Source: Pacificibacter maritimus (GTDB lineage Bacteria; Pseudomonadota; Alphaproteobacteria; Rhodobacterales; Rhodobacteraceae). Taken from it: DNA of 64,000 nucleotides. The DNA is taken from positions 946,031 through 1,010,030 of the forward strand of contig NZ_RKQK01000001.1 of NCBI RefSeq assembly GCF_003814915.1, in the 5' to 3' direction. Both the position numbers and the translations under genes were made by a program. Shown here one piece after another: positions 48,338 to 52,611 of the stretch. Every line of letters starts with the position of its first letter. Within the stretch, counting starts at the first letter, position 1. A model generated the notes under the pieces. It saw only the letters and a program-made list of their open reading frames with translations, searched no databases and was not told where the DNA came from.

Positions 48338-49192
48338 TTAGAGACCCATCAAAGTGCGGGCTTTTTCCAAGATTTTTTCCAAGATAACTGGGTTGTTTTG
48401 AGCTTGCTCAATACCAGAAATCACTGTGACTTTTGCTTGTGCATCCAACATTGGTGCCGCTTCGATCAAGTCTTTTGCTTTGTCGATATCAAAGCCGTCA
48501 ACGGTCAAAACTTCTTTAGCAGCTGCAATTGAAAACTCTGGGGTTGCGTCAGTTGCCATTGCTTCAGCGCCTTCGGCAGCGTCAGTCGCCATTGCTTCAG
48601 CGCCTTCAGCAGCGTCAGTTGCCATTGCTTCAGCACCTTCGACAGCGTCAGTTGCCATTGCATCCGCACCTTCAGCAGCGTCAGTCGCCATTGCTTCAGC
48701 ATCGTCCATTGCGTCGCTCGCCATGTCAGTTGCAGCAGTCGCCGCATCTTTTGCGCCATCAGCCGCTTCAGTTGCCATGTCAGTTGCAGCATCCGCAGCA
48801 TCAGTCGCCATTTCTGTCGCGCCGTCTACCGCAGCGCCAGCCGCATCCGCAGCATCAGACGCCATCTCAGATGTTGCATCAACTGCGTCAGATGCCATTT
48901 CGGTTGCCGCATCTGCTGCATCCGATGCCATTTCTGTCGCGCTGTCTACTGCATCTCCAGCTGCGTCAGCCGCATCTTCGGCCATCTCAGTTGCAGCGTC
49001 CGCCGCGTCTGATACCGCATCTTTTGCAGCGTCAAGCATTGAGCCAGCAGTCTCTCCAGCAGCTTCAGCAGTTGTTTCAGTGGCTTCAACTGTTGCTTCA
49101 GTTGTTTCAGCTACTTTTTCTTCTTCTTTACAAGCGGCAAGGCTTAGCGCTAGGCCAGTTGCAACAGCTGCAGTAACAAAACGATTGGTCAT
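48338..49192 (-). CDS. Lipoprotein with Ala-rich hendecad repeats
   Basis: The protein is 284 residues from ATG 49192 (GAGGATC ribosome site; the frame from 49306 is longer but has none). MTNRFVTAAVATGLALSLAAC is a lipoprotein signal with C21 as the lipid site. Then twelve or so units of eleven residues of type [S/T]DAA[D/E][A/G]A[T/E][E/A]MA, some extended by seven to eighteen, run from about residue 65 to 210. The 11-residue period suits an amphipathic right-handed coil or long helix, as in LEA-like proteins. A compact C-terminal part (ILEAAP-like DLIEAAPMLDAQAKVTVISGIEQAQNNPVILEKILEKARTLMGL) follows. No function is known; it may be an envelope spacer or stress protectant. The DNA repeats make the opposite strand open by chance. 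Confidence 0.85.
   Translation of the reverse strand: MTNRFVTAAVATGLALSLAACKEEEKVAETTEATVEATETTAEAAGETAGSMLDAAKDAVSDAADAATEMAEDAADAAGDAVDSATEMASDAADAATEMASDAVDATSEMASDAADAAGAAVDGATEMATDAADAATDMATEAADGAKDAATAATDMASDAMDDAEAMATDAAEGADAMATDAVEGAEAMATDAAEGAEAMATDAAEGAEAMATDATPEFSIAAAKEVLTVDGFDIDKAKDLIEAAPMLDAQAKVTVISGIEQAQNNPVILEKILEKARTLMGL
48546..48710 (-). repeat. Five 33-bp tandem repeats inside the lipoprotein gene
   Basis: Five consecutive 33-bp units (48546-48578, 48579-48611, 48612-48644, 48645-48677, 48678-48710) share most bases; the first three differ at only a few positions. Each codes for one 11-residue unit, so gain or loss of units keeps the frame and should vary between strains. 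Confidence 0.9.
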
Positions 49193-49389
49193 TTCTTGAT
49201 CCTCACGAGATACAATTTCCTTTATGTCATCCATATCGCATGCTGCACCTGCAATTAAAAGGGTTTCAAAGCGCAGAAAACTCCCCTTTCTTACAAACAA
49301 GCACATTGATGCCGAGTTTGCGGTTGTAAGCCCCCGATAAAACCCCTATTTTTCGCGCATAGAACATGAACAGCTAATAGGAGCTCATC

Positions 49390-49935
49390 ATAGCCCGCAG
49401 ACCTCACAATGCCCCGCCCCAACGTGATACTGGCCCTCGCACGAATGAACGCATTCGCTGCCCAGAGGTGCGCCTTATCGGAGCAGAGGGTGAAAACGTC
49501 GGCGTTGTTACGCCCGCACGTGCAATGGATTTAGCCGCCCAAGCAGGTCTTGACCTTGTCGAGATTTCGCCAAATGCGACCCCACCTGTTTGTAAGATCA
49601 TGGATTTTGGTAAGTTCAAATACGAACAGCAAAAACGTGAATCTGAAGCACGCAAAAAGCAAAAGATTATCGAGATCAAAGAGGTTAAATTCCGTCCTGG
49701 TACGGATGTGCATGACTACCAAGTCAAAATGCGTAACGTCTTAAAATTCTTGGAAAACGGCGATAAAGTTAAAGTAACTTTGCGTTTCCGTGGCCGCGAA
49801 ATGGCCCACCAAGATTTGGGGCGTCAGCTTCTTGAACGCGTCGCAGTTGACGTGAAAGAGATCGGTAAAGTTGAAAGCATGCCAAAAATGGAAGGCCGTC
49901 AAATGATCATGATGGTCGGACCACTGCCGCGTTAA
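49390..49935 (+). CDS. infC: Translation initiation factor IF-3, non-AUG start
   Basis: IF-3 binds the small ribosomal subunit and checks start codons. The frame gives [82 protein letters not shown], a full IF-3 N-domain, and ends in [21 protein letters not shown]. The first ATG or GTG in frame would cut off the conserved N-terminus. The codon at 49390 is ATA, with GGAG at 49380-49383 (6 bases of spacing); ATC at 49387 is the alternative. Rare start codons in infC serve autoregulation, because IF-3 rejects them. I used ATA, giving 181 residues. A terminator follows. Confidence 0.93.
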
Positions 49936-50026
49936 AATAACGCAAAATATCACGGTCGCACGCCCGAAGCAATCGGGCGGCACCATCAGACGCCTGCGAC
50001 ATCGCAGGGCCAAGTCTGGCAGGGTT

Positions 50027-50053
50027 ACCCCCGAAGCGGATCGTTTCGGGGGT
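50027..50053 (+). terminator. Terminator after infC
   Basis: ACCCCCGAA pairs with TTCGGGGGT around GCGGATCGT; the tail is ATTATTTT. It lies 91 bases after the stop. Confidence 0.85.
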
Positions 50054-50150
50054 ATTATTTTGCGCAGTCCATTTTGATCGCTCTCGCCTGAAAATAGACG
50101 AATCGCGCGAAGAAACGCGTATCCAGATTTACAAGGGATGCCTCATTGGC

Positions 50151-50188
50151 AAAAAAAGCGTCGCAGGAAAACGCACTACCTGCGACGC
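50151..50188 (-). terminator. Terminator of the candidate small RNA (or of the FadJ-like gene)
   Basis: A 10-bp perfect stem GCGTCGCAGG/CCTGCGACGC with an 11-base loop is followed on the minus strand by seven T. It is about 180 bases beyond the stop of the FadJ-like gene, far for a normal gene terminator. Confidence 0.88.
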
Positions 50189-50293
50189 CAAGGTCGTTAT
50201 CAGCCCACGCACAACAGGCAAACAACGTTCAGACAAAATAGTCTGAGGAAGGAGGCAACAGGCAAGACCAATATTGCCTCGGTGTTGCGCTCT
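50151..50293 (-). ncRNA. Candidate FNR-controlled small RNA
   Basis: The minus strand between the FadJ-like gene and infC's end has no gene with a start codon, but has the parts of an sRNA. A perfect FNR box lies at 50328-50341, and about 40-50 bases on is a possible start point near 50285-50293. A hairpin TCAGAC/GTCTGA lies at 50229-50246, and just 5' of it (in RNA sense) is the pyrimidine stretch CCTCCTTCCTC (50245-50255) that could pair with ribosome sites. A strong terminator stem GCGTCGCAGG/CCTGCGACGC (50158-50188) is followed by seven T (50151-50157). The 5' end is a guess. Confidence 0.5.
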
Positions 50294-50327
50294 ATGAAAT
50301 GTTTAAACGGTGCTGCGGATCAACACT

Positions 50328-50341
50328 TTGATCTGGATCAA
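50328..50341 (-). promoter_or_regulatory. Perfect FNR box
   Basis: TTGATCTGGATCAA matches the FNR/FnrL consensus TTGAT-N4-ATCAA at all ten defined positions. It is between the end of the FadJ-like gene and the sRNA region, 27 bases beyond the gene's stop, so it cannot be upstream of any annotated coding gene on either strand. It is assigned to the minus strand because a terminator follows there. Confidence 0.75.
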
Positions 50342-50368
50342 GTTGCAAACCAGCTTTGGTGACTTGAC

Positions 50369-52474
50369 TTAAAAATCGTTGAGATTTTCCAACAAATCAC
50401 CGTTTTTGATAAGCTCTGCCCACAATTGCACTGGCTCCCAAATATCTGGGGCTTCGAGTGAAAATTGGCGCAGCTTTTTTTGAACAACCAAGGGCGTCAT
50501 GATATCAGCTGCCATCATCGGCCCACCATGCCAGCGCGGATAGCCTTTCCCCATGAGCATCACGGCATCAATATCAATCGGGCGGGATGCCGCCCCAGTT
50601 TGCAGTGCTTTCGCCCCTGCATTTGCCTGCGCCAAGACAATGCGATCACAAATTTCAGAGTCGCTCATAAACACGCGATCTATACCAGCGCCTTCGCGAA
50701 TGGGATCAAGAATTGCAATGGCTGCGGAATCATCACCGCGAATTGCGTCAGACTGGCTAAGACTATAGGAATAAAATCCGCCTGATCCGCCCCGCCCTAA
50801 GCGCCCTTCTGCGACCAAAACAGTCGGGGCAACGCCGGAAAGATGCGCCAGACCAAGGGCGTCCATTTGCGCACAAGGTCCCGTTGCAAATCCATAGTTC
50901 TCCATCGCCGTGTCGATTTGAGAGGGTGAGACACCAAGCAAAAGCATCACGTCGACAGCATCCCAAATCGCGGCTTGCAAGGTATTGGCGATCAATCCGT
51001 CTTGGGCAGGCACGGTGATCGGCGCTTTGCCAAGTGTGCGCATAGCCGCGTAAGCAGAGGCAAATGCACGCTGGGACAAGTTTTCTGGGCGCACCAATTC
51101 TACAAGTCGCACAGCTTGGACCGGCGCAAAGAAATGCAGTCCCAAGAACCGATCTGAATGGGACAGGTCTTGTGCAATCCGCGTGAAACCATGATCACCA
51201 ATCGTTGCCAAGAGCGCCTCTTTATCGACGAATTCTTCTATACGGCTCAAGATTTGCGCACGCCGTTCGACCGATCCTGTTGAGGCTTCGATCACCAGAT
51301 CGCAAGCAGACAAGCTGCGCAGGCCGTCTGATCCTAGAAAACGCCCCAGACGTTCGTTTTTTTCCGCTTCACTGACTTGGCCCATCTGTGCCGCTTGATC
51401 GTAGGACCGTGTGACTTTGCTTTGCGCCAAAGCGACTTGATTTGCATCAGAACCGAAAAGCACCACAGAAAATCCGCGATCCAAAGCGATCATTGCGAGC
51501 CCAACGGCCATGTTTGACGTGCCTGCGATGCCGATGGATTGAATGGGCTGTGCGGGTTGAGGATCAAAATCAACGGGTCGCACAGCGCGGCGTTCGGCGT
51601 AGTTTGCATAGCGCATGGCTTTGACGTGGGGCGCACCGAGCATTTCGACTCGCGCCGCTTCTTCACGGAATAAGCCCGCTTCAAAGGGCAGCAAAACAGC
51701 AGCTTCTACGCAATCGATAATCAAGCGAGCGGGTGATGCATGATGTCGCGGTACCTTGGCGCGGCGGCGATTGATTTCGGCCATAAAGCCAGCGCCATCG
51801 GCCAGTCCTGTTGTCACATCACAAGACCTTGGTGCAGGTCGATCCGTTTGTTGAATTTTTGCACAAAAAGACGCGACGCCTTTGGGCGTACGCATATCGA
51901 CGACATGATCCACCAAGCCGACTTGCTGCGCTTGTTGGCCAAAAATTGATTTACCAGAAAGCAGCAGTTCCAGCGCCACATTCGGCCCTGTCAGGCGCGG
52001 CAATCTTTGGGTCACGCCACCGCCTGGTATCATGCCAAAGGTCACTTCAGGTGCTGCAAACCGTGCTTTTGGTCCACAAACCCGATAATGCGCAGCCAAA
52101 GCCAGCGCGAGCCCTGCTTCGAAAACCGTGCCGTGCAATGCGGCGACCACGGGTTTGGGGCTGGTCTCGATTGCCGCACAAAGATCGCTCAACGTTGGTG
52201 CAGCCTCAAGTTGACCTTCGGGCAAAGTTGCAAGTTCTTTCACATCGAAGCCCACACTGAACCCTGCGCCTTGACCGCGCAAACAGATCACAGTGACGGA
52301 CGGGTCATCTTGGGCCAATTGAAGGCTGCTTAAAAGCGATCTACGCAGATCCACTGTCAACGCATTTACGGGCGGGTTCGCCAACGTGATGTAGGCAACA
52401 TTTTTAGCGCTGCGTGTTGTCACCAGCGGTTTGACGTCATGCTCTTCAGGCACAGTGGCATCGGATCTGGTCAT
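50369..52474 (-). CDS. FadJ-like protein (enoyl-CoA hydratase / 3-hydroxyacyl-CoA dehydrogenase layout), degenerate motifs
   Basis: The 701-residue protein from ATG 52474 (GGAGAGG ahead) has the two-part FadJ/FadB layout: crotonase fold (about 20-200) and NAD-binding dehydrogenase (about 310-700). Key motifs are changed. In the crotonase part the usual G-G-G-x-E before the helix reads VFEAGLALALA (E missing), while the second glutamate E143 (PEV) is kept. In the Rossmann loop G-x-G-x-x-G reads GIAGTSNMAVG (315-325), and the N-T-S block reads ATIGDHG. The catalytic histidine and glutamate in GLHFFAPVQAVRLVELV remain. It may be inactive in one or both steps, or act on a special substrate. It stands alone. 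Confidence 0.85.
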   Translation of the reverse strand: MTRSDATVPEEHDVKPLVTTRSAKNVAYITLANPPVNALTVDLRRSLLSSLQLAQDDPSVTVICLRGQGAGFSVGFDVKELATLPEGQLEAAPTLSDLCAAIETSPKPVVAALHGTVFEAGLALALAAHYRVCGPKARFAAPEVTFGMIPGGGVTQRLPRLTGPNVALELLLSGKSIFGQQAQQVGLVDHVVDMRTPKGVASFCAKIQQTDRPAPRSCDVTTGLADGAGFMAEINRRRAKVPRHHASPARLIIDCVEAAVLLPFEAGLFREEAARVEMLGAPHVKAMRYANYAERRAVRPVDFDPQPAQPIQSIGIAGTSNMAVGLAMIALDRGFSVVLFGSDANQVALAQSKVTRSYDQAAQMGQVSEAEKNERLGRFLGSDGLRSLSACDLVIEASTGSVERRAQILSRIEEFVDKEALLATIGDHGFTRIAQDLSHSDRFLGLHFFAPVQAVRLVELVRPENLSQRAFASAYAAMRTLGKAPITVPAQDGLIANTLQAAIWDAVDVMLLLGVSPSQIDTAMENYGFATGPCAQMDALGLAHLSGVAPTVLVAEGRLGRGGSGGFYSYSLSQSDAIRGDDSAAIAILDPIREGAGIDRVFMSDSEICDRIVLAQANAGAKALQTGAASRPIDIDAVMLMGKGYPRWHGGPMMAADIMTPLVVQKKLRQFSLEAPDIWEPVQLWAELIKNGDLLENLNDF

Positions 52475-52611
52475 GTCCTCTCCGCGCAAAATTTTCTACA
52501 TCATGCTGAGAAGAAACAGAAAATGCAAGAACCCTTTGAATTGGCTCACAGATCGGTAAAAACCAGTACCGCATGTCGCGCGTCAGATTGTCAGACAGCT
52601 ATGACGACAGG

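Follow-up and report, generated by a model that had tools for sequence, protein, structure and literature searches.

A probable small regulatory RNA under a proposed low-oxygen FnrL switch in Celeribacter and Pacificibacter

Small RNAs (sRNAs) that are activated by FNR are best known from gammaproteobacteria. The passages cited here describe FnrS of E. coli as a repressor of more than 30 mRNAs for functions that are dispensable without oxygen (PMC8139620), with sodB among its targets (PMC10993149), and NarS as an FNR-activated sRNA that derives from the narK 3′ end (PMC8139620). In R. sphaeroides, PcrZ is described as an RNA of 136 nt that is induced at low oxygen in dependence on PrrA and FnrL, where the control by FnrL may be indirect (PMC8139620, PMC6238624). 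FnrL ChIP-seq sites are additionally located in the putative promoters of RSs0019 (Pos19) and RSs2461, for which an influence of FnrL is not established in the cited part of that study (PMC4263372). FnrL control of sRNAs in R. sphaeroides is, in the cited passages of these reports, suggested by the ChIP sites and by PcrZ, but not settled (PMC8139620, PMC6238624, PMC4263372).

The locus described here lies in a stretch of 64,000 nucleotides from Pacificibacter maritimus, which was analyzed as a whole and is called the window. On its minus strand, between a fadJ-like gene and infC, lies what is probably the gene of a small regulatory RNA that FnrL would switch on at low oxygen. Two alignments are referred to throughout: A1 comprises 19 of the 21 loci at which the RNA was found, and A3 covers the 3′ half of the RNA from 18 of the 21 (17 distinct rows). 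The features of the locus are as follows.

50369–52489, minus strand: fadJ-like enoyl-CoA hydratase/3-hydroxyacyl-CoA dehydrogenase gene (Pfam ECH_1, 3HCDH_N, 3HCDH)
50328–50341, minus strand: FNR box TTGATCCAGATCAA, read directly, at which FnrL is proposed to activate the sRNA
50300–50305, minus strand: putative −10 element TAAACA, its position anchored on the FNR box
50292–50293, minus strand: putative transcription start, A or G of AGAGCGCA, at the conserved GAGYGCA position
50151–50293, minus strand: predicted sRNA of about 143 nt (fold, covariation, model matches)
50252–50292, minus strand: hairpin SL1 at the 5′ end (fold; helices 1 and 2 of the A1 covariation)
50245–50255, minus strand: anti-Shine-Dalgarno stretch, CU-rich, CCTCCTTCCTC / CCUCCUUCCUC, read directly
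50229–50246, minus strand: hairpin SL2 of 6 bp (hairpin listing, fold, helix 3 of the A1 covariation)
50195–50227, minus strand: hairpin SL3 (fold, A1 and A3 covariation)
50207–50215, minus strand: SL3 loop GUUGUGCGU, with UUGUGCGU invariant in 18 of 18 A3 rows
50151–50188, minus strand: intrinsic terminator with a 10-bp stem, loop UAGUGCGUUUU and U7 (read directly, fold, A3 helix 2)
49390–49935, plus strand: convergent infC, encoding IF-3 (TIGR00168, 241.9 bits)

The candidate RNA takes on a fold of four hairpins, the last of which is the intrinsic terminator. With −58 kcal/mol and a z-score of −5.8, the fold of 50293–50151 was not equaled by any of 200 shuffled sequences. The parts that the original prediction had read from the letters are all in place: the pyrimidine stretch (50255–50245) is followed by the 6-bp hairpin (50246–50229), and the 10-bp terminator stem (50188–50158) by seven T that extend to 50151. 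The terminator listing gives only a shorter, overlapping version of this terminator (50174–50158). The CU-rich stretch resembles the anti-Shine-Dalgarno sequence of 16S rRNA, and by plain count CCUCC or CCUUCC is found 5′ of SL3 in 20 of the 21 loci, the sole exception being the copy in Aquimixticola. That the RNA blocks translation, as originally proposed, is inferred only, with the retention of this stretch pointing in that direction. The sequence UUGUGCGUGG, in and adjoining the SL3 loop, is common to all 18 A3 rows. Conservation extends to the terminator loop: L005–L017 and L019 keep UGCGUUUC, in which the UGCGU known from SL3 recurs. One statement of the original prediction, that the patch holds no open frame with a start codon, has to be corrected. 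A 56-aa frame with a TTG start on the strand of the RNA (50225 to 50055) runs through the terminator, and a 74-aa frame with an ATG start on the opposite strand (50138–50362) overlaps the patch. Neither is read as a gene, because the relatives vary by compensating base pairs and by insertions and deletions.

The case for an sRNA is made by comparison with relatives. A query of 219 nt that included the FNR box matched 19 of 148 genomes, the own genome among them, and the matches in the relatives cover the 3′ part only and leave the box uncovered. A covariance model, R1, was built from this 3′ part. Of 20 Celeribacter/Pacificibacter genomes, which form one genus, 19 contain a single strong copy (72–108 bits) and have 22 bits as their next best score; the one genome without a copy is an 85%-complete assembly. 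Outside the genus, strong matches among 394 family genomes are confined to G061 (Aquimixticola) and G165, and among 385 class genomes the own genome alone exceeds 31 bits. Matches that scored below 32 bits in these two sets were regarded as chance and do not enter the counts. When the weak places with loci were checked (nine places of the family search, the seven weakest and two second ones, came without loci), FNR-like boxes were found only at L038, with one mismatch and at other distances, and loop-like words with two mismatches at L024 and L198. The resulting 21 loci (L001–L019, L023 and L102, the window included) are kin to one another, and counts over them are not counts of independent events. 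A separate scan of species genomes for box, spacing, loop and start of the terminator returned 14 stretches, ten from Celeribacter (C. baekdonensis has the RNA), three from Pacificibacter and one from Aquimixticola; since it requires the box, it is no independent test of the box, and records near the window may be missing from it.

The secondary structure is preserved by covariation, as the original prediction had expected of relatives. The 37 consensus pairs of A1 are paired in 97.4% of cells, and 18 of them show changes on both sides; no shuffle out of 500 did as well (2 of 500 when pair types were counted), and no slid control exceeded six such pairs. The A3 alignment yields both-sided changes in 12 of 21 pairs, against 0 of 500 shuffles and at most four pairs in slid controls. 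Sequence and structure are conserved, as are the box and its spacing described below; the sRNA gene is very likely real, because its shape and its FNR switch are kept in related species.

The FNR box is placed 27 bases beyond the stop codon of the fadJ-like gene (50369–50371), exactly where the original prediction had put it. It is the only perfect (zero-mismatch) FNR site of the window, for which 0.13 are expected. Taken by itself it is weak evidence and not decisive, because at least one perfect box occurs in 13 of 100 shuffled versions of the window. The whole genome of 3.08 Mb contains 13 perfect boxes, compared to none in the reversed control. Four of the 13 are intergenic with respect to ORFs of at least 100 aa. 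One of these is the sRNA locus, and the other three lie beside genes that resemble ccoG, ccoN/usp and ctaC/tldD.

The 20 relatives’ loci were picked up through the RNA and not through the box, and a TTGAY-N4-ATCAA box is nevertheless present at all 21 loci, with T at the variable position in 19 and C in two. For 19 of the 21, the distance from the center of the box to the conserved RNA start GAGYGCA is 41.5–42.5 nt; L018 and L023 lack this start motif at the expected place. Class II FNR promoters have this same spacing and do not require a −35 element. The conserved motif places the transcription start presumably at about 50292/50293, in agreement with the original guess of 50285–50293. When the loci are aligned on the box, the mean information content per column is 1.75 bits in the box, 0.39 in the 60 bases before it, 0.57 in the spacer and 0.98 in the −10 zone, and the first two columns of the −10 element (T, A) reach 1.7 and 2.0 bits across the 21 loci. 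A simple sigma-70 scan of 49000–51600 listed no promoter, the putative −10 TAAACA included. A second FNR-like site with two mismatches lies at 50310–50323, between the box and the −10 element.

The surroundings of the RNA are less constant than the RNA itself. The original prediction had held that a loss of box and terminator in relatives with conserved flanking genes would speak against it, and the opposite is observed: RNA, terminator and box co-occur in 21 of 21 loci, the gene on the right varies, being infC in the window, in L003 and in L018 but not at the remaining loci, and at one locus the gene on the left differs too. A terminator-like site follows infC at 50026–50054. The start of infC is seemingly the ATA at 49390, to judge from the GGAG just upstream and the frame that continues into the IF-3 domain, where the ORF listing offers only the GTG at 49468; infC genes commonly use a rare start codon. 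An alanine-rich repetitive ORF of 322 aa (ATEMASDAADAA repeats; 48338–49306, minus strand) adjoins infC, and its only match, to Phasin_2, is sub-threshold. Comparable repetitive frames are also seen at L002, L004 and L018, on the side that infC occupies in the window.

The near-constant presence of fadJ on the other side bears on the first alternative, in which the RNA is mainly the 3′ UTR and terminator of the fadJ mRNA, possibly with a stable processed 3′ fragment, and the box is minor or accessory. At 20 of 21 loci a fadJ-like gene of the same strand precedes the RNA, and its distance varies. No terminator-like site is listed between its stop codon and the FNR box, and therefore read-through from fadJ may contribute to the RNA. 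There is also precedent, as the R. sphaeroides sRNAs PcrX and CcsR1-4 (PMC8307010) and SorX (PMC6238624) are 3′ UTR-derived according to the cited passages, with CcsR1-4 being processed from a transcript that carries ccaF1 upstream (PMC8307010). A processed fragment, however, needs neither the box nor its spacing to the RNA start, both of which are kept, and in L023 (genome G165) RNA and box are present without a fadJ match in the locus. The conserved box speaks for a promoter of its own, where the sigma-70 scan listed none; an RNA that is mainly 3′ UTR is unlikely.

A trans-acting sRNA gene that is activated by FnrL at low oxygen, and whose product pairs with mRNA leaders and lowers their translation, is the reading that we hold to be probable. 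The genome encodes FnrL (NF045989 equivalog, 442 bits with a cut-off of 300), with a cysteine-rich N-terminus and a gene near a ccoN-like gene; together with the conserved box, this supports the original view of an FNR-regulated sRNA. For a second Crp/Fnr-type protein (L068), seven NCBIfam models are listed, and it reaches the cut-off of none of them. According to the cited passage, one box can serve both FnrL and Dnr proteins in Dinoroseobacter shibae (PMC5398030). Because Dnr-type regulators can share such a box, NO could also serve as a signal.

From these conserved features we infer that the RNA is expressed, depends on FnrL and acts on its targets by base pairing. The proposed sequence of events would start with the binding of FnrL, when oxygen falls, to the box centered about 42 nt upstream of the start. 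To judge from the spacing, FnrL would then recruit RNA polymerase in the manner of a class II FNR promoter, and the intrinsic terminator would end transcription to yield the structured RNA of about 143 nt. Subsequently, the CU-rich anti-Shine-Dalgarno stretch and the invariant SL3 loop would pair with mRNA leaders, and the translation of functions that are unwanted at low oxygen would be lowered.

Candidate targets were sought with both elements. An anti-Shine-Dalgarno search word, AGGAAGGAGGCA, found five places with one mismatch allowed, one of them the sRNA itself, versus four in the reversed control. The gene that we take to be ccoI carries ACGCACAA in codons 3–5 in the window’s genome, yet only one of 19 starts across the genus does (19 starts found in 20 genus genomes, one mismatch allowed), and it was rejected. 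Unrestrained RNA-target duplex energies were discarded as meaningless. The complement of the loop, ACGCACAAM at most 25 nt before an ATG, was screened in five genomes and gave 132 places, of which the sRNA itself and nine overlapping places were left out; a screen of the own genome with a shorter pattern and a gap of up to 30 gave 49 places. Both screens together contain 61 start-like cases, 15 of which have a Shine-Dalgarno sequence by the set rule. Four genes are common to more than one genome, and among these only sodB (G004, G018) has a Shine-Dalgarno sequence; the pairs L165/L323 and L136/L290 have none by the set rule. An identical stretch, ACGCACAAATTTTGCCCGAGAAGGAAATCATG, is found in L226 (G006) and L252 (G004), neither of which passed the start-codon filter.

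The leaders of sodB were compared with the RNA in five genomes (G000, which is the window’s species, G004, G006, G008 and G018). The longest Watson-Crick match is 9 bp in G018 (equaled by 10 of 500 shuffled leaders) and in G004 (2 of 500), 8 bp in G006 (51 of 500) and 7 bp in G008 (133 of 500), and the leader of G000 has no match of at least 6 bp. The 9-bp match pairs with the terminator loop and an overlapping 8-bp match with the SL3 loop; in G006 the match to the SL3 loop requires one G-U pair, as seen by eye. Shared ancestry of the leaders could explain this agreement, and sodB is a weak lead for Celeribacter, not for the window’s species. For the latter, a DUF2007 gene (PF09413, 82 bits) with a site in codons 5–8 in G000 and G008 is likewise a weak lead, where coding constraint could explain the site. 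Both are leads and not results, because 132 and 49 places were screened and the leaders are related by descent. A bolder idea, on balance unlikely, is that Celeribacter evolved an equivalent of FnrS from unrelated sequence: the UGCGU loops of an FnrL-switched RNA would pair with AGAAACGCACAA early in the sodB leader, CCUCC would cover the Shine-Dalgarno sequence and no superoxide dismutase would be made without oxygen, the window’s species having lost this target and using the RNA for others.

The behavior of the loops also bears on a second alternative, a sponge RNA whose loops titrate a protein or another sRNA instead of pairing with mRNAs. UGCGU is present in both 3′ loops in most rows (GUGCGU in SL3, UGCGUUU in the terminator, the latter loop being different in L004 and L023), and the loop of SL3 stays invariant where the tested target sites drift. 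The anti-Shine-Dalgarno stretch, in contrast, points to mRNA leaders, which makes a sponge distinctly improbable. That the patch is not transcribed and merely combines a conserved terminator with an unrelated regulatory site could appeal to the frequency of chance boxes and to the empty sigma-70 scan, but is scarcely credible given the constant co-occurrence, the near-constant spacing and the covariation that extends to the helices before the terminator.

The candidate FnrL-switched sRNA can be set beside the known systems. The likeness to FnrS and NarS is FNR-type activation of a short RNA, which is predicted here; they differ in that the RNA has no Rfam match and that its strong matches are confined to a small clade within a single family, and NarS also in its origin from narK. 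Of 4227 Rfam families, none matches the RNA at gathering score (the only match of the window is a tRNA), and six weak matches at E-values up to 5 in five loci do not overlap it. A search of open-licence literature found no title on this RNA. Cuckoo RNAs carry CCUCC-rich motifs in or between hairpins, and the Cuckoo RNAs/CcsR1-4 of Rhodobacterales share the CCUCC motif with the RNA described here. The difference is in the arrangement, which has ccaF1 upstream in the Cuckoo/CcsR case and, here, a single RNA that has an FNR box to itself and is preceded at 20 of 21 loci by a fadJ-like gene.

The family offers a compact RNA from marine bacteria that can be cultured; each of the copies examined has a near-ideal FNR box, and the fixed loop is open to mutation. 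FnrS-like riboregulation in these bacteria becomes a directly testable question, and the family yields a covariance model that Rfam lacks. PcrZ, an alphaproteobacterial sRNA, is of similar length and, compared by description only, differs in that strong R1 matches among the 394 family genomes are limited to the own genus plus G061 and G165; RSs0019 and RSs2461, likewise compared by description only, have FnrL sites at their promoters as proposed here. Judged by Rfam and the open-licence literature, the RNA family appears to be new; the logic of an FNR-switched sRNA is known from FnrS and NarS.
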